The notes beneath the pieces were generated by a model. The model was not told the origin of the DNA. It did no database searches and worked only from the letters and a program-made list of their open reading frames with translations. Positions 2,616-10,450 of a stretch of 64,000 bases of DNA are shown here, in pieces. This DNA comes from Neoroseomonas eburnea. GTDB lineage: Bacteria; Pseudomonadota; Alphaproteobacteria; Acetobacterales; Acetobacteraceae. The translations under genes were made by a program, and so were the position numbers. Within the stretch, counting starts at the first letter, position 1; each line of letters opens with the position of its first letter. The DNA lies in the NCBI RefSeq assembly GCF_018129005.1, contig NZ_JAAEDL010000015.1:62001-126000 (forward strand). The letters run 5' to 3'.

Positions 2616-3848
2616 ATGCGGACCACCGACGCCATCGTCATCGGCGCCGGCCAGGCCGGGCTTGCCATGAGCCATTGCCTCGCCGCGCGCGACATCGACC
2701 ACGTCGTGCTCGAGCGCGGCCGTGTCGCCGAACGCTGGCGCCGCGAACGCTGGGACAGCCTCCGCCTGCTCACCCCGAACTGGATGAGCCGCCTGCCCGG
2801 CTGGTCCTACCGCGGCCCCGATCCGGAGGGCTTCATGACCATGCCCGAGGTGATCGCCCATCTCGAAGGCTATGCGTCCGCGGCACCCGTGGAGGCCGGC
2901 GTCGCCGTCCACGCCCTGCGCCGCGGCCCCTTCGGTTACCTGGTCGAGACCGGCGCCGGCGCCTGGGCGGCGCGCGCCGTGGTCGTCGCCACCGGGCAAT
3001 GCGACCTGCCCCATATCCCTGCCATCGCCGCTACGCTGCCGAAGGCGGTCCGCCAGGTCACGCCCGCCTCCTACCGCAACCCGGGGCAGCTTCCACCGGG
3101 CGGCGTGCTGGTGGTCGGCGCCTCTGCCTCCGGCGTGCAGCTCGCCGAGGAGATCCATCGCTCCGGCCGGCCCGTCACCCTCGCCGTCGGCCGCCACACG
3201 CGACTGCCGCGGCGCTGGCGCGGGCGCGACATCCTCGACTGGATGGACCGCGCCGGCGTGCTGGCGGAGCGCGCGGAGGAGGTGCGCGACCTCACCGCCG
3301 CGCGGGCACAGCCCTCCCTGCAACTGGTCGGCCGGCCGGACCATGCGAGCCTCGACCTCGGCGTGCTGCGCGGCATCGGCGTGCGCGTCGTCGGCCGGGT
3401 GGAGACCGTCTCGCAGGGCCGCGTGCTGCTGCGCGACGACCTGCCGGACACGACCGCGGCCGCGCAGCGCACGCTGGACCGGCTGCTCGCGAGGCTGGAC
3501 GCGGTGGCGGATGCGGCCGGCGCGCCGCGCGAGCGGCGTCCGGCGCCGCTGCCGCCCTTCGCCCCCTCCCCGCCGGAGATCGACCTGGCGGCCGAGGGCA
3601 TCCGCACCGTGCTCTGGGCCACCGGCTTCCGGCGCAACTATGCCTGGCTCCAGGTGCCCGTGCTCGATGCGGCGGGCGAGATCCGCCACCAGGGCGGCGT
3701 CACCCCCTCGCCCGGGCTCTACGTGCTTGGGCTGCGCTTCCTGCGTCGGCGCAATTCCAATTTCCTCGATGGCGTCGGCGCCGATGCCGAGGCGCTCGCC
3801 GACCATGTCCTCGCCCACCTCGTCGCACGCGGCCGTGCCGCGGCCTGA
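2616..3848 (+). CDS. FAD/NAD(P)-dependent flavin monooxygenase-like oxidoreductase (CzcO type)
   Basis: 410 aa. Two dinucleotide folds are visible: FAD-binding VIGAGQAGLAMSHCL at residues 8-22 and NAD(P)-binding VVGASASGVQLAEEI near residue 167. The late motif VLWATGFRRNY is typical of flavin monooxygenase-like proteins annotated as CzcO or as putative flavoproteins of K+ transport. The first part also has the family's ERWRRERWDSLRLLTPNW segment. Such enzymes oxygenate or oxidise small organic substrates; the substrate here is unknown. ATG 2616 sits 5 nt after GGAGG. It is 16 bp ahead of another FAD enzyme, so the two are probably co-transcribed. Confidence 0.85.
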   Translation: MRTTDAIVIGAGQAGLAMSHCLAARDIDHVVLERGRVAERWRRERWDSLRLLTPNWMSRLPGWSYRGPDPEGFMTMPEVIAHLEGYASAAPVEAGVAVHALRRGPFGYLVETGAGAWAARAVVVATGQCDLPHIPAIAATLPKAVRQVTPASYRNPGQLPPGGVLVVGASASGVQLAEEIHRSGRPVTLAVGRHTRLPRRWRGRDILDWMDRAGVLAERAEEVRDLTAARAQPSLQLVGRPDHASLDLGVLRGIGVRVVGRVETVSQGRVLLRDDLPDTTAAAQRTLDRLLARLDAVADAAGAPRERRPAPLPPFAPSPPEIDLAAEGIRTVLWATGFRRNYAWLQVPVLDAAGEIRHQGGVTPSPGLYVLGLRFLRRRNSNFLDGVGADAEALADHVLAHLVARGRAAA

Positions 3849-5001: not shown

Positions 5002-5441
5002 GCGATCCCTGGGCGCGCACCATCGCCGGCCGCCCGCAGGCCGGCCAGACGGTCGAGCGCACGCGACGCACCTCCATGGCCGATGTCGAGGCCTTCACCG
5101 CCATCACCGGCGACCGCAACCCGCTGCACTACGACGCGGCGCTCGCGACGGCCTCGCCCTTCGGCGGGCTGATCGTGCAGGGCGGCGTCACCTCCGGCCT
5201 GCTCAACGCCGTGGTGGCGGAGGACCTCCCCGGTCCCGGCACGGTCTTCCTCGGCGTCGAATGGCGCTTCGTGAAGGCGGTGCGCGTGGGCGAGGAGATC
5301 ACCGCGCGCGTCGAGATCGTCTCGGTGCGCGACGACAAGCCGATCTGCACCCTCGCCACCACCATCCGCAATGCCGAGGGCGACGCCTGCCTGACGGGCA
5401 CCGCCGTGACCTGGACCGCGCCGCTGCGCGCCCCGGCCTGA
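4998..5441 (+). CDS. MaoC-like (R)-specific enoyl hydratase/dehydratase
   Basis: 147 aa hot-dog fold protein. The hydratase signature is visible as TGDRNPLHYD (catalytic Asp and His) followed by PFGGLIVQGGVTSGLL and the C-terminal EWRFVKAVRVGEEITARVEI. MaoC/PhaJ-type enzymes hydrate trans-2-enoyl-CoA to (R)-3-hydroxyacyl-CoA, feeding polyhydroxyalkanoate or fatty-acid routes. The GTG at 4998 is chosen because it overlaps the upstream stop as GTGA and extends to the usual hot-dog N-terminus; the internal ATG at 5076 would remove the first strand. It is last in the 1957-5441 run. Confidence 0.85.
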   Translation: MSDPWARTIAGRPQAGQTVERTRRTSMADVEAFTAITGDRNPLHYDAALATASPFGGLIVQGGVTSGLLNAVVAEDLPGPGTVFLGVEWRFVKAVRVGEEITARVEIVSVRDDKPICTLATTIRNAEGDACLTGTAVTWTAPLRAPA

Positions 5442-5458
5442 TCTCCAGGACATCTCCA
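5441..5458 (+). promoter_or_regulatory. Tandem ATCTCCA direct repeat (site 1)
   Basis: ATCTCCA occurs at 5441-5447 and 5452-5458, an 11-bp period. The site is 97 bp ahead of the small gene at 5556. The same arrangement with the same period recurs at 7442-7459, ahead of the other small gene. OmpR-type winged-helix proteins bind tandem half-sites with a 10-11 bp period, and such a regulator is encoded between the two sites. It overlaps the stop of the MaoC gene. Function is inferred. Confidence 0.45.
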
Positions 5459-5555
5459 CGCCGCCGCAACGCTGCCTCCAAGCGCCGCATAGCGGCGGTG
5501 GGGAGACTGCGCCACCCCGCCCATCCTGGCCGGGGCCGCAGCGAGGAGAGCCGCC

Positions 5556-5711
5556 ATGGCCGAGTTCACCGCAGAGAAGATCCCGGGCGACCGCTGGAGC
5601 GGGCCCGAATGGTTCCGTCACATCGCCGGCAAGCCCTTGGCGGAACGCCGCGCCAGGCCCACGGCGCTGTCCTGGAAGGACGAGCTCGCGCTGCTCTATC
5701 CGCCGGGCTGA
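5556..5711 (+). CDS. Small hypothetical protein (51 aa)
   Basis: Starts at ATG 5556 after GCGAGGAGA and encodes MAEFTAEKIPGDRWSGPEWF and onward to a LALLYPPG end. It is charged and soluble, with no signal peptide or membrane helix. No family was recognised. Support comes from the ribosome-binding site, coding-like third positions and a regulator-like direct repeat 97 bp upstream that it shares with the DUF1127 gene at 7563. Its 3' end overlaps the 3' end of the convergent TPR regulator by 16 bp. Confidence 0.5.
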   Translation: MAEFTAEKIPGDRWSGPEWFRHIAGKPLAERRARPTALSWKDELALLYPPG

Positions 5712-7312
5712 ACCTCGACCCCGGCGGGCGACGGCGCCTTCAGCCCCGCCCGCCGAAGCCCTTCGAGGCAAAGCTCGACGAGCGCCTCATCCGCGCAGAA
5801 GAAGAAGTCCGAACGCGCGTCGGCGAGCGTGTAGGCCGGCGCCTTCTCGAGCAGCGCGGGCAGGGCGCGGCGCGCCTCCTCGATGCGCCCCATCAGGCCG
5901 AGCGCGGCGACCAGCATCATGTGCGGCCACAGCTTGGCGTTCGGCACGCGCGTCGCGCGGCGCGCGCATTCCACCGCCTCCGCGAAGTCGCGCAGCTGGA
6001 TGTGCGCGAGGGCGCGCGCGGCGTGGAAGCTCGACAGGTGCGGGTCGCGCGGGCTGAGCTCGATCGCCCGGCCGAGATGCGCGATGCCGTCCCGCGAACG
6101 ACCGCTCCAGACCATGGTGCAGCCCAGCGCGAAATGCGCCTGCGCGAAGCTGGGGTTCAACACGACCGCCTGCTCGAGCAGCGCGATCGCCTCCTCGTAG
6201 TCGTGGCGGAAGGCATGCACGCGGCCGAGCACGCAGAGGTTCATGCAGTCCTGGGCGTCGAGCGCGACCGCGCTGCGGCTGAGGCGCAGGGCTTCGTCGA
6301 GCAGGGCCTCGCGGCTCTCGTGCTCGCCGACCACGGTTTCCTGCAGCAGCACATAGGCGAGGGCGCCGTGCGCGCGCGCGAAGCCCGGGTCGAGCTCGAT
6401 GGCGCGGCGGAACATCGCCTCCGCCTCCGCCATGCCGGGGGAGGTGAAGCCCCAGAGGTGGAACAGCCCGCGCTGGTAGCAGTCCCACGCGCCGAGGTTC
6501 ACCGGAGGGCGCCGCACCGCCGCTTCCCGTTCGAGCCGCGCGAGCTCGGGCTCGATCGCTGCCGCGATCTGCTCGGCCATCGCGCGCTGCACGTCGAGCA
6601 CGTCCGCCAGCGCGAGGTCGTAGGTCTCCGACCAGAGCTGGTTGCCGGTCTCCGCGCTGACCAGGTCGGCGGCCAGACGCACGCGATCGCCGCGCTTGGC
6701 GACGCTGCCATGCACCAGGTAGCGGACGCCGAAGGCCGCGCCGATCTCGCGCGCGTCCACCTCCTTCCCGCGGAAGGCGACGGCGGTGTGGCGGCTCAGC
6801 ACGTCCATCCAGCGATGGCGCGCGAGCAGGCGGATCACGTCCTCGGTCAGGCCGTAGCTGAAGTAGTCGGTATCGGGTTCGGTGCTGAGGTTGGCGAAGG
6901 GCAGCACGACGACCGAAGGACGGCTGGAGCGTTCGGCGAGCGGCGCTTCGGCCGGCGTCGCGGCGGATGCTTCCGGCGCCCGCGCCTGCGCCTGCGCCTC
7001 CGGCAGCTCGGTGACGTCGGCGATGAACCGGAAGCCGCGCTTGTGGATGGTCTTGATCAGCGCCTGGCGATCGCCGTCGTCGCCCACCGCCTTGCGCGCG
7101 GCGTTGATGCGGCTGCTCAGCGCCGCCTCGGAGACGATGCGGCCGTTCCACACCACATCGAGCAGTTCATCCTTGCTGACGACGCGATCCCGGTTGCGCA
7201 CCAGATGCAGCAGCAGGTCGAAGACCTGCGGCTCCACATGCACGCGCGACCCGTCGCGCCGCAGCTCCTGGCGGCGCAAATCCACCTCGTGCCCTGAGAA
7301 GGCGAGGGACAT
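5696..7312 (-). CDS. OmpR-type winged-helix / TPR transcriptional regulator
   Basis: 538 aa. Residues 1-97 form an OmpR/CadC-type DNA-binding domain (EPQVFDLLLHLVRNRDRVVS, then ALSSRINAARKAVGDD and IKTIHKRGFRFIADV). Residues about 125-255 are the TolB/FlgO-like segment common in adenylate-cyclase-associated regulators (VVVLPFANLSTEPDTDYFSY, then YLVHGSVAKRGDRVRL). Residues about 280-510 are tetratricopeptide repeats (AEAMFRRAIELDPGFARAHG, EEAIALLEQAVVLNPSFAQAHF). No membrane segment is seen, unlike CadC. The start at 7312 has GGAGG 6 nt upstream; an in-frame ATG at 7318 is the alternative. It is divergent from the DUF1127 gene, with a tandem ATCTCCA site between them, so it may regulate that gene and itself (inference). 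Confidence 0.85.
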   Translation of the reverse strand: MSLAFSGHEVDLRRQELRRDGSRVHVEPQVFDLLLHLVRNRDRVVSKDELLDVVWNGRIVSEAALSSRINAARKAVGDDGDRQALIKTIHKRGFRFIADVTELPEAQAQARAPEASAATPAEAPLAERSSRPSVVVLPFANLSTEPDTDYFSYGLTEDVIRLLARHRWMDVLSRHTAVAFRGKEVDAREIGAAFGVRYLVHGSVAKRGDRVRLAADLVSAETGNQLWSETYDLALADVLDVQRAMAEQIAAAIEPELARLEREAAVRRPPVNLGAWDCYQRGLFHLWGFTSPGMAEAEAMFRRAIELDPGFARAHGALAYVLLQETVVGEHESREALLDEALRLSRSAVALDAQDCMNLCVLGRVHAFRHDYEEAIALLEQAVVLNPSFAQAHFALGCTMVWSGRSRDGIAHLGRAIELSPRDPHLSSFHAARALAHIQLRDFAEAVECARRATRVPNAKLWPHMMLVAALGLMGRIEEARRALPALLEKAPAYTLADARSDFFFCADEALVELCLEGLRRAGLKAPSPAGVEVQPGG

Positions 7313-7441
7313 CGACATCCTCCCTGGCCATGCATGAACCCGCATTGGGTTGATCTCTGCGCCATCCGGCGCGGTGCGCGGATTATCCGCGCCTCGTGCC
7401 CCTGGCTCAACCTTTCAGAAGACCTCGCGGCGCGCGGAGTG

Positions 7442-7459
7442 ATCTCCAGCAAATCTCCA
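7442..7459 (+). promoter_or_regulatory. Tandem ATCTCCA direct repeat (site 2)
   Basis: ATCTCCA at 7442-7448 and 7453-7459, again an 11-bp period, lying 103 bp before the DUF1127 start and 129 bp from the divergent regulator start. It matches the site at 5441-5458 in half-site sequence, spacing and distance to a small gene. It is a likely operator for the OmpR-type regulator at 5696-7312; binding is inferred. Confidence 0.5.
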
Positions 7460-7562
7460 TGCATCGGCCAGTTCTCCGCCAAGCGCGCGCACCGGCACGC
7501 GCGGCACAAGAGACGCGCCGCGGCGATGGCGACGGCGGCAGCAACGGAGAGGAGATCGGACC

Positions 7563-7724
7563 ATGACCACCATCGGCGACCTGTTCGGCAACCTTGCGAT
7601 GTGGCGCGAACGCGCTCGCGGCCGTCGGCTGTTGATCGAGATGGATGCGCGGCTGCTGAAGGACATCGGCATGACGCAGGACGCAGCGGCGGCGGAGGCC
7701 GCGAAGCCCTGGTGGCGGGACTGA
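7563..7724 (+). CDS. DUF1127 small protein
   Basis: 53 aa, starting MTTIGDLFGNLAMWRERARG. It has the DUF1127 signature: an aromatic/basic N-terminal part, then RRLLIEMDARLLKDIGMTQD, where L-x-D-I-G is the family hallmark. DUF1127 proteins (YjiS-like) are small basic RNA-related proteins; several alphaproteobacterial members affect phosphate, carbon or sRNA-based regulation. ATG 7563 follows GGAGAGGAG. It is preceded by the tandem ATCTCCA site and is divergent from the TPR regulator. The EamA transporter starts 45 bp downstream and may share the transcript. Confidence 0.8.
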   Translation: MTTIGDLFGNLAMWRERARGRRLLIEMDARLLKDIGMTQDAAAAEAAKPWWRD

Positions 7725-7769: not shown

Positions 7770-8675
7770 ATGCCCACCACGTCCACCGCGCTCGGCATTG
7801 CGGCCGGGCTGACGGCGGCCGCCACCTGGGGCGGTGCGCTGGCGATGACGAGGCTCGGCGTGGCCGGCCCGTCTTCCCTCGGTCCGGCGGACATCGCCAT
7901 GCTGCGCTTCCTCGGGCCGGCGATCCTGCTGCTGCCGGTCCTGCTGCGCGCCATGCCGCGGTTGCGCAACACCGGCGCGCTGCTGCTTGCGACGCTTCTC
8001 CTCGGCGGCGGAGCGCCCTTCGTGTTGGTGGCAGGCAGCGGGCTGCGCATCGCCGGTGCGGCGGAGGCCGGCGCATTGCTGCCCGGCACCATGCCGCTCT
8101 GCGTCGCGGCCATGTCGGTCGCGCTGGGGGAACGCATCCATGCCGCGCGGCGGGCCGGCCTCGCATTGCTCGCCGCCGCGGCGGCGGCCGTCGCCGGTCC
8201 GTCCCTTGCCGAGGGGGAGGATGGCGAATCCGCGGGGCACCTCCTTCTCCTCGCGGCGGCGGCGCTCTCGGCAGCCTACACCGTCGCGCTGCGGCGGAGC
8301 GGCCTCGGCGCATGGGAAGCGGCGGCCTTCGTCAGCGCGGGGTCGGTGCTGTGCCTCGGGCCTGTCCATGTCCTGGCGATGGAACCGTGCCTGGAGCGGG
8401 CGAGCTGGGGCGACATCGCCGCGCAGGCGGCCTTCCAGGGGCTTGGGCCGGGCCTCCTGGCGCCGGTCGCCTTCGCGATGGCGGTGGCACGGCTGGGCGC
8501 ATCCCGCGCCGCCGCCTTCGGCAGCCTCAGCCCGGCGGCGGCGACACTCGCGGGCATGGGCCTGCTGGGGGAGGTCCCGGATGCCACCACCTTCGTCGCG
8601 GTGCTCGCTTCGGGTGTCGGCGTCGTGCTCGCGACGCGTGCTCCGGCCGGGCAGGGCATTCAGACCGGACGATGA
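7770..8675 (+). CDS. DMT-superfamily (EamA) permease
   Basis: 301 aa, about ten hydrophobic helices in two EamA repeats, with the opening GLTAAATWGGALAMTRLGVA and a second repeat from about residue 157. These 10-TM carriers export amino acids, nucleotides or other metabolites, or import them in some cases; the substrate is unknown. It lies 45 bp after the DUF1127 gene on the same strand and is convergent with the antiporter at 8738. Confidence 0.85.
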   Translation: MPTTSTALGIAAGLTAAATWGGALAMTRLGVAGPSSLGPADIAMLRFLGPAILLLPVLLRAMPRLRNTGALLLATLLLGGGAPFVLVAGSGLRIAGAAEAGALLPGTMPLCVAAMSVALGERIHAARRAGLALLAAAAAAVAGPSLAEGEDGESAGHLLLLAAAALSAAYTVALRRSGLGAWEAAAFVSAGSVLCLGPVHVLAMEPCLERASWGDIAAQAAFQGLGPGLLAPVAFAMAVARLGASRAAAFGSLSPAAATLAGMGLLGEVPDATTFVAVLASGVGVVLATRAPAGQGIQTGR

Positions 8676-8737: not shown

Positions 8738-10450
8738 CTACCGGCCCGCCCGCAGTTCCTCGACCGTCCGCGCCGCCGCCGCGGGGTCCACGCCGAGCCG
8801 CGTCATCGCGAAATCGGCCATGCCGAGTGCTATCTCCCGCTCGCCCATCACGACCACGCCCATGCCCTTCTCACGTTCGAGGAAGGCGGCTTCCTCCTCG
8901 TCATGCGCGCGGGCGGCGGCCGTGATCGTCGGGTTCATGGCGCGCGCCATGGCGAGAACCCGCCGGCATCCCGCGCCATCCGGCATGCCAAGGACGATCA
9001 GCCTGGCCGTCTCCGGCCGCGCGGCCTTCAGCACCTCGATCCGTGTCGCGTCGCCCCAGACCACCGGTACGCCTTCGGCGCGCAGCGCTTCGGCGACCGC
9101 GTGGCTGGCCTCCACCACGACATAGGGCTGGCGGTGGCGGCGCAGCGCGGCGGCGACCACACGGCCGACGCGGCCATGCCCGACCAGGATCGCATGGTCC
9201 ACGAGCCCCTGCGGCGGGACATGCGACAGCCGCGCCCGGCCGCGCCGCATCAGCCAGACGCGCATCCGCCGGGTGCCTTCGATCCGTACCGCGAGCCGAT
9301 CCGCCAGCGCCTGCATCAGCGGCGTGGCCAGGATGGTCAGCGTCGCCGCCACCAGGATGGGCCCACGCACCGTCCCCGGCAGCACGCCCGAACCGATGGC
9401 GAGCGCGCCGAGCAGGAAGGAGAACTCGCCGATCTGCGTCATCGCCCCGGCCACCGTCGCCGCCGCGGGCACCGGCACGCGCATCAGGATCAGCAGGCCG
9501 AAGGTGACGCCGCCGGTGCCGAGCAGCACCGCGAGCAGCGTCGCCAGCGAGGCGACGGGCATGGCGAGCATCGCCGCCGGATCCACCAGCATGCCGACCG
9601 AAACGAAGAACAGCGCGACGAAAACGCGCTGCAGCGGCACGGTTTCCGCCGCCGCCTGGTGGCCGAGCGGGCTTTCCCCCAGCAGCACGCCGGCGAAGAA
9701 GGCCCCGAGCGCCGGGGAGACGCCGAACAGCGCCGACGCGCCGAAGGCGGTGCCGAGCGCGATGGCGATCACCGCCAGGGTGAAGAGCTCACGCGAGCCG
9801 GTCTGCGCCACCAGATCGAGCAGCCGCGGCAGGAGCACGCGCCCCCCGAAGGCCATGGCGACAAGGAAGGCGGCGAGTTCGATCGCCGTGCCGAGCAGCC
9901 GTTCGCCGAGCGAATCCTGCGCGCCGGTACCGGCGAGGACCGGCAGCAGGACCAGGGCGAGGACCACCACCAGGTCCTGCATCACGAGCCATCCAAGCGC
10001 GATGCGCCCGGCTTCCCCGGAGAGCCGCCCCTTCTCCTCCAGCGCACGCGTGGCGACGGCGGTGGAGGAAATGGCGAGCGCCAGGCCGAAGACCGGCGCC
10101 GCGCTCCAGCCGAGGCCGAGCACCAACGCCCCCGCCGCGGCGCCGATCGCCGTGCCGGCGGCGATCTGCGCGAGCGCCCCGGGCAGCGCGACCTGCCAGA
10201 CCGCGACGAGGTCCCGCGCGCGGAAATGCAGGCCGACGGTGAAGAGCAGCAGCGCCACGCCGATATCCGCCAGCGCCCCAGCAATGTCCGGGTCAGCAAC
10301 GAAGCCCGGCGTATATGGCCCGACCGCGACGCCTGCCGCGATGTAGCCAAGAAGCGGCGGCAACCGCAGCAGCCTCGTCGCGAAGCCAAGGGCAAAGGCG
10401 AGGGCAAGCGCGACCACGAGGGTCGCGACCAGGGGGCCGGCATGGGTCAT
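8738..10450 (-). CDS. Monovalent cation:proton antiporter, YbaL/Kef-like
   Basis: 570 aa. Residues 1-385 are a CPA2 Na+/H+-exchanger-type membrane domain with about 12 helices (LRLPPLLGYIAAGVAVGPYT, FGLALAISSTAVATRALEE, ALFGVSPALGAFFAGVLLGE). Residues about 415-530 are a cytosolic TrkA-N/RCK domain (HAILVGHGRVGRVVAAALRR). This is the E. coli YbaL architecture; KefB/KefC are close relatives with glutathione gating. A role in K+ or Na+ efflux and pH homeostasis is likely. Length agrees with YbaL (about 560 aa). No ancillary KefF/KefG flavoprotein gene is adjacent. Confidence 0.88.
   Translation of the reverse strand: MTHAGPLVATLVVALALAFALGFATRLLRLPPLLGYIAAGVAVGPYTPGFVADPDIAGALADIGVALLLFTVGLHFRARDLVAVWQVALPGALAQIAAGTAIGAAAGALVLGLGWSAAPVFGLALAISSTAVATRALEEKGRLSGEAGRIALGWLVMQDLVVVLALVLLPVLAGTGAQDSLGERLLGTAIELAAFLVAMAFGGRVLLPRLLDLVAQTGSRELFTLAVIAIALGTAFGASALFGVSPALGAFFAGVLLGESPLGHQAAAETVPLQRVFVALFFVSVGMLVDPAAMLAMPVASLATLLAVLLGTGGVTFGLLILMRVPVPAAATVAGAMTQIGEFSFLLGALAIGSGVLPGTVRGPILVAATLTILATPLMQALADRLAVRIEGTRRMRVWLMRRGRARLSHVPPQGLVDHAILVGHGRVGRVVAAALRRHRQPYVVVEASHAVAEALRAEGVPVVWGDATRIEVLKAARPETARLIVLGMPDGAGCRRVLAMARAMNPTITAAARAHDEEEAAFLEREKGMGVVVMGEREIALGMADFAMTRLGVDPAAAARTVEELRAGR

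Follow-up and report, generated by a model that had tools for sequence, protein, structure and literature searches.

Does a regulator of the alphaproteobacterium Neoroseomonas eburnea control the genes around it through a common operator, and how is that operator built? The question arises from a 64,000-nucleotide stretch of DNA (the window; contig NZ_JAAEDL010000015.1, positions 62,001 to 126,000), in which tandem ATCTCCA repeats lie on either side of a gene for an OmpR-type winged-helix protein with tetratricopeptide repeats (TPRs). Our answer, to which we assign a probability of roughly three in four, is that this regulator is an activator binding head-to-tail on four half-sites that abut the −35 region, at four promoters of this genome.

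Four-repeat arrays around the regulator gene

The sequence ATCTCCA-N4-ATCTCCA occurs without mismatch at 5441–5458 and 7442–7459, 97 and 103 bp before the ATG codons (5556 and 7563) of genes for a 51- and a 53-amino-acid protein. An earlier interpretation made from the letters alone (the sequence-only reading) had claimed these pairs and distances, had placed the 53-residue protein in DUF1127 and had described the gene between as an OmpR-type/TPR regulator; each of these points was borne out, the last by Pfam matches to Trans_reg_C and TPR families. With up to three mismatches allowed, the only other match in the window carries three. The genome-wide search that the sequence-only reading called for, over 5.86 Mb, returned these two exact pairs only, and 14 matches with at most two mismatches versus 5 for a reversed control pattern. 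Lone ATCTCCA words are mildly enriched in the window (10 versus 4.6 expected), so the signal is the spaced pair. The exact pair was also found in 2 of the other 199 family genomes, once at the orthologous place (L009) and once within a coding-looking stretch (L010), where the 18-mer was taken as chance and dropped.

Comparison of orthologous loci revealed that each pair is part of an array of four 7-bp half-sites in 11-bp steps with a CAAGC end. The homologue loci came from Neoroseomonas, Roseomonas, Roseococcus, Sabulicella, Falsiroseomonas, Elioraea, Caldovatus and others. A gap-free alignment of 45 arrays over 72 columns displays four heptamers 11 bp apart (consensus about nTCTCMA; spacers strictly 4 bp). 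AG(C) follows the last of them, and a −10-like hexamer comes 22 bp on; CAAGC is the most constant part of the alignment. Of the 23 loci in which both intergenic regions were compared (the window, L041–L061 and L070), 14 carry an array with a matrix score above 30 on the regulator's small-gene side and 18 carry one on its DUF1127 side. A pairs-only reading was rejected because relatives retain all four half-sites, the first one often being the weakest. The proposed link of tandem operators to the regulator and both small genes thus stands, by rarity, conservation and co-occurrence, and the description of the sites as half-site pairs does not; two further half-sites per site, the hexamer, the array at 1770 and an array on another contig had been missed.

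The period is sharply defined. A matrix of half-site 2 applied to the other three positions scored +1.7 when the period was 11, whereas each other period from 7 to 16 gave a value between −10.9 and −18.3. Nineteen later arrays from distant loci gave +1.5 and −11.0 to −17.7, respectively, a result that is not independent since the profile selecting them already holds the period. The hexamer has A at position 2 in 44/45 aligned and 15/19 distant-locus arrays, and T at position 6 in 31/45 and 17/19; over 48 arrays these bases occur in 46 and 33. The two arrays without the A are window array 2, whose hexamer lies at 23 bp, and one from L050.

A profile of the arrays (R1), trained on loci of regulators 55–86% identical, made four clear matches in the genome. 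Three are the window arrays, which its training set held and which surround the regulator; the fourth, at position 45145 of contig C12 (expectation value E = 2.1e-6), had been left out of training. The fifth match has E = 0.045. Matrices built without the window, and also without L041–L048, still put the three window arrays at the top, far ahead of the fourth; array 0 takes rank 2 in the window by the matrix built without it. On the grounds of genome-wide rarity and this held-out scoring, a chance origin was rejected. The features concerned are as follows.

1770–1813, + strand: array 0, 11-bp direct repeats GAATCCA, TTCCCAA, TTCCTGA, GTCTCCA, 5′ of the OsmC operon; matrix score 31, R1 E = 1.2e-10
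1832–1837, + strand: −10-like hexamer TAGGGT of array 0, 22 bp past the last half-site, position kept in relatives
1957–2559, + strand: OsmC-like gene, first of the operon; Pfam OsmC (PF02566) 70.1 bits, cut-off 27.5; NCBIfam OsmC_like_Se 68.1, under its cut-off of 95
2616–3848, + strand: NAD(P)/FAD-dependent oxidoreductase; Pyr_redox_3 62.7 bits
3865–5001, + strand: FAD_binding_3 flavoprotein; 82.1 bits
4998–5441, + strand: MaoC-like dehydratase, GTG start; 72.7 bits; the final base of its stop codon is the first base of array 1 (5441)
5441–5484, + strand: array 1, ATCTCCA, ATCTCCA, GCCGCAA, GCCTCCA in 11-bp steps; R1 E = 2.9e-13; kept at orthologous loci
5503–5508, + strand: −10-like hexamer GAGACT of array 1
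5556–5711, + strand: gene of the 51-amino-acid protein; no match in Pfam (E ≤ 0.001) or NCBIfam (E ≤ 0.1)
5696–7345, − strand: regulator, 549 amino acids, with N-terminal OmpR-type winged helix, alpha/beta segment and TPRs; its 3′ end and the 51-amino-acid gene share 16 bp
7382–7410, − strand: sigma-70-like regulator promoter TTGAGC-17-GATAAT, the sole promoter-like match in 7300–7620
7442–7485, + strand: array 2, ATCTCCA, ATCTCCA, TCGGCCA, TCCGCCA in 11-bp steps; R1 E = 2.0e-9; kept at orthologous loci
7505–7510, + strand: weak −10-like hexamer CACAAG of array 2, 23 bp past the last half-site
7563–7724, + strand: DUF1127 protein, 53 amino acids; Pfam PF06568 28.5 bits, cut-off 23.3
7770–8675, + strand: EamA transporter; 69.0 bits

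The regulon of one regulator and two tiny proteins outlined by the sequence-only reading is therefore too narrow. Array 0 stands before the genes for OsmC, two flavoproteins and MaoC, and the array on C12 before a gene for a 104-amino-acid protein with an apparent signal sequence and GSGENxSV repeats, in which no Pfam family was found. In N. terrae, a homologue of this gene with its array adjoins the regulator, at the place of the window's 51-amino-acid gene. The EamA gene is likely cotranscribed with the DUF1127 gene, and the gene order is the same in relatives. Both small open reading frames (ORFs) look real by the ratio of nonsynonymous to synonymous differences (pN/pS): uncorrected values fell below 1 in 10/10 homologue pairs for the 51-amino-acid ORF and 21/21 for the DUF1127 ORF.

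Some neighbouring observations concern these gene families. The apparently secreted proteins with GSGENxSV repeats form a family of 103–104 amino acids without a Pfam match, encoded behind an array (L232, 5135–5180 and the next gene; L163). Genome G213 contains two DUF1127-EamA modules, each with its own array (L229 on contig C54; L012 on contig C63), and G200 has two array matches about 600 bp apart upstream of a single OsmC region (C24:314867–314935 and 315470–315538). In the window itself, a Na+/H+ exchanger with a TrkA_N domain (Kef-like; 8738–10450, − strand) adjoins the regulon, and the window scan gave no array upstream of it.

Arrays and winged helices across genomes

The arrays follow the regulator. 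Among 39 relatives, they were found (E ≤ 1e-5) in 7/7 genomes with an orthologue of at least 80% identity and in 1/32 others (G208); among 200 family genomes (orthologue at least 55% identical; E ≤ 1e-4), in 10/11 and 2/189, respectively. Of the two family extras, one is G197 and the other is G112, whose array stands directly divergent from a regulator of 38% identity, rising to 53% in the winged helix-turn-helix (wHTH). Arrays absent from the training alignment are those of G208, G197, G112, G213 (C54 and C7), G127 C1, G097 C66, G186 C79 and G000 C12. Weak profile matches in G226 (7.2e-4) and in G165, G087, G137 and G031 (1.5e-4 to 1e-3) lie outside the stricter count cut-offs; on rescoring they reached matrix scores of at most 9.5, as did the match in G445 taken up below (all six: L157, L183–L186, L264).

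Beyond close orthologues, R1 made 33 matches at E ≤ 0.1 in 58 distant loci, including L062 and L070, which had supplied training sites. Nineteen of these matches are on the strand opposite to the regulator and 34–136 bp upstream of it, a position expected by chance for about 1.7% of matches (binomial 1e-25, phylogeny ignored). The regulators concerned share mainly the winged helix with that of the window. Pfam searches on nine of them, two from G208 and G218, identified seven as winged helix plus alpha/beta-hydrolase (L104, L108, L116, L087, L088, L226, L231), one as winged helix with TPRs (L073) and one as winged helix only (L076). Many of the genes behind distant arrays encode proteins of about 53–85 amino acids with the motif DGSIDTAYYM or a variant. 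Close to the regulators of L063, L064 and L101 (41–52% identity) no convincing array was found, and L065 has a possible variant array. In two Gemmatimonadota loci, array-like sites precede SBP56-type genes (L084, 3718–3789; L087, 7438–7509), with a winged-helix gene about 3.5 kb away that in L087 is of the alpha/beta-hydrolase type.

A wider profile (R2, 65 sequences) was run on 337 genomes of the class, with E ≤ 1e-4 for arrays and E ≤ 1e-22 for the winged-helix class. Arrays occurred in 8 genomes and the winged-helix class in 28, with 7 of the 8 among the 28; that is, 7/28 with it versus 1/309 without it, or 6/27 versus 1/309 with the own genome left out. The eighth, G445 (8.3e-5), is a poor match with a matrix score of at most 9.5 and was counted as an array genome without winged helix. 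In G246, G275 (twice), G313, G425 and G479 the array lies 26–114 bp from a divergent winged-helix gene.

Similar arrays beside related regulators suggest a shared control code. In its broadest form, this would be a winged-helix class (signature about HVEPQVFDLL) with interchangeable TPR or alpha/beta-hydrolase sensors and one operator code, four 11-bp direct repeats at a fixed distance from the −10 element, across Alphaproteobacteria and perhaps beyond (Gemmatimonadota, Undibacterium). As an undescribed one-component system, it would have tiny proteins and enzymes of the thiol/sulphur or redox kind (OsmC, MetY, cysteine synthase, SBP56) as most of its outputs. We regard this generalization as tentative, at somewhat less than even odds. 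If true, it would allow the operators of a broad group of uncharacterised winged-helix regulators to be read and their target genes to be listed from sequence alone; it would name a likely regulator for the 51-amino-acid family, the window's DUF1127 protein and the Rhodobacteraceae DGSIDTAYYM proteins; and varied sensors on one DNA-reading module would make a clean case for the evolution of one-component regulators.

A proposed activator and its alternatives

By its Trans_reg_C domain (PF00486, 52.8 bits, cut-off 26.2), the regulator groups with the OmpR/PhoB-type winged-helix proteins. An AlphaFold2 model built with 36 sequences (mean predicted local distance difference test score 85.9, predicted template-modelling score 0.58) runs from a winged helix through a low-confidence linker and an alpha/beta segment to a part made of helical repeats. 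Sequence and fold searches with the C-terminal part gave mainly TPR proteins, and the VIA-align rows are TPR or TPR-like proteins over residues 281–549 that leave the winged helix uncovered. No membrane helix was predicted (highest 19-residue hydropathy 1.15). The Pfam matches at E ≤ 0.001 include no receiver-domain family, and BTAD is absent, at the sequence level, from the 12 families listed, a result compatible with structural likeness.

We infer that this protein is a cytoplasmic one-component activator whose winged helix would bind head-to-tail on the four 7-bp half-sites. The fourth half-site, with the conserved CAAGC, would abut the −35 region, and the −10-like hexamer follows 22 bp on, which suggests that the bound row of regulators takes the place of a good −35 element in recruiting sigma-70 RNA polymerase. 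The putative target promoters are those of the OsmC/flavoprotein/MaoC operon, the 51-amino-acid gene, the DUF1127 gene (with EamA) and the gene of the 104-residue secreted-looking protein. Signal sensing would fall to the TPR part or, in those relatives that combine the same winged helix with an alpha/beta-hydrolase, to the hydrolase. Given the sigma-70-like promoter at 7410–7382, array 2 begins about 30 bp upstream of the regulator's own −35 element, and it may also tune this divergent promoter.

Several results weigh against this proposal. The co-occurrence counts are not blind, because several of the counted genomes also supplied training sites. The hexamer of window array 2 is weak and one base off in spacing. 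Fourteen of the 33 distant-locus matches fall elsewhere than beside the regulator, and 21/28 class genomes with the winged-helix class gave no array at E ≤ 1e-4 under strict filters. The family miss, G177, is a 78% complete genome in which the regulator's contig is present; its orthologous place has just a degraded site, in which two half-sites are good (score 12.6), a sequence that recurs in L056. In G197, three arrays persist and the regulator reads as a broken remnant beside one of them; in this genome, L253 (8184–8528) shows the remnant-like frame next to a persisting array and small gene. Lastly, G208 has the OsmC array, and its only close winged helix is a wHTH-hydrolase paralogue.

The case of G208, which lacks a close TPR orthologue, fits the notion that the arrays are bound mainly by another OmpR-type protein (the wHTH-hydrolase paralogue or else a response regulator), with the TPR regulator as a neighbour or site-sharer. 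G218 has both the TPR orthologue and the paralogue, and the two types of winged helix are alike over their entire length. This arrangement is nonetheless unlikely, as arrays accompany the TPR orthologue in 7/7 and 10/11 genomes and two of the three window arrays flank the TPR regulator. Somewhat less probable still is that the regulator represses through its arrays: the position of array 2 upstream of the sigma-70-like promoter makes negative autoregulation possible there, yet at the targets the arrays lie upstream of a −10-like hexamer with no good −35 element visible, which is the layout of an activator. Least probable is a promoter for an alternative sigma factor (e.g. RpoH type) formed by CAAGC and the hexamer, in which the upstream repeats matter little. 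In its favour, CAAGC is the most constant part, and RSP_7527, to which one small protein of this kind is weakly similar, has a promoter called RpoHII-dependent from sequence (PMC8625941). Against it, CAAGC forms the in-register end of repeat four, the 11-bp period holds across the whole set of repeats, and the arrays track a winged-helix gene, which would be unexpected for a sigma-factor promoter.

Candidate signal and known systems

Genes behind arrays elsewhere encode OsmC, a MetY-type enzyme, SBP56, a bacterial globin, a cysteine-synthase-like protein, DUF1127-EamA modules and small proteins. The names SBP56 (L084/L087), MetY-type (Cys_Met_Meta_PP) and globin derive from Pfam; SBP56, MetY and cysteine synthase for L258 and L260 are presumed from their sequences. 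From these kinds of genes, and from published effects of hydrogen peroxide and singlet oxygen on RSP_7527/UdsC, we would guess at thiol/organosulphur or oxidative stress as the signal. The small proteins found behind the arrays have weak kinship to RSP_7527/UdsC: of two that were tested, one reached 24 bits against a cut-off of 26. A simple link to methanethiol is disfavoured by the Ruegeria mtoX gene, which adjoins an IclR-type regulator. In Agrobacterium, DUF1127 proteins act on the sensor kinase PhoR (PMC12501420), and a role of this kind may or may not apply to the protein of the window.

A search of titles and abstract beginnings of open-licence papers gave no description of the operator or regulator. 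The geometry is that of known OmpR-type operators (PhoB/PhoP/SARP-like); the literature searched does not describe the operator as such, how widely it occurs or its connection with different sensor parts. The best PDB sequence match of the winged helix is the DNA-binding domain of CadC, with PhoB and PhoP lower, and CadC and HilA are the best partial matches in NCBIfam, both below cut-off (CadC 69.6 bits against 400; HilA/EilA 78.6 against 589). The CadC periplasmic domain (3ly8) is a weak fold match (rank 45, E 9.6e-6, template-modelling score 0.25 by query), and CadC, unlike the window regulator as predicted, has a membrane helix.

The direct repeats bound by PhoP are 7 bp long and separated by a strict 4-bp spacer, and sets of three or four are bound more tightly than pairs (PMC4832192). 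PhoB and PhoP thus share with the present system the winged helix and, in the DNA pattern, 7-bp direct repeats with 4-bp spacers; the window regulator differs in showing no receiver among its Pfam matches, in its TPR sensor (hydrolase in relatives), in having four repeats as a rule and in its half-site sequence. SARPs such as AfsR and PimR likewise have an N-terminal OmpR-type winged helix followed by helical repeats, and 11-bp direct repeats at the −35 region (PMC10936776, PMC5930380), as here with an inferred start site. They differ in that TPR families, not BTAD, appear in the Pfam listing at E ≤ 0.001, and no antibiotic cluster is seen adjoining the window regulator. If the hexamer serves as the −10 element, the fourth 11-bp repeat would lie at about −41 to −31 with three more upstream, so that the array would reach upstream from about −31, whereas the AfsR box spans −40 to −19. 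The upstream AfsR repeat lies at −40 to −30, where its protomer contacts sigma region 4 (PMC10936776); because the fourth repeat nearly matches this place, activation by a row of four regulators is favoured.

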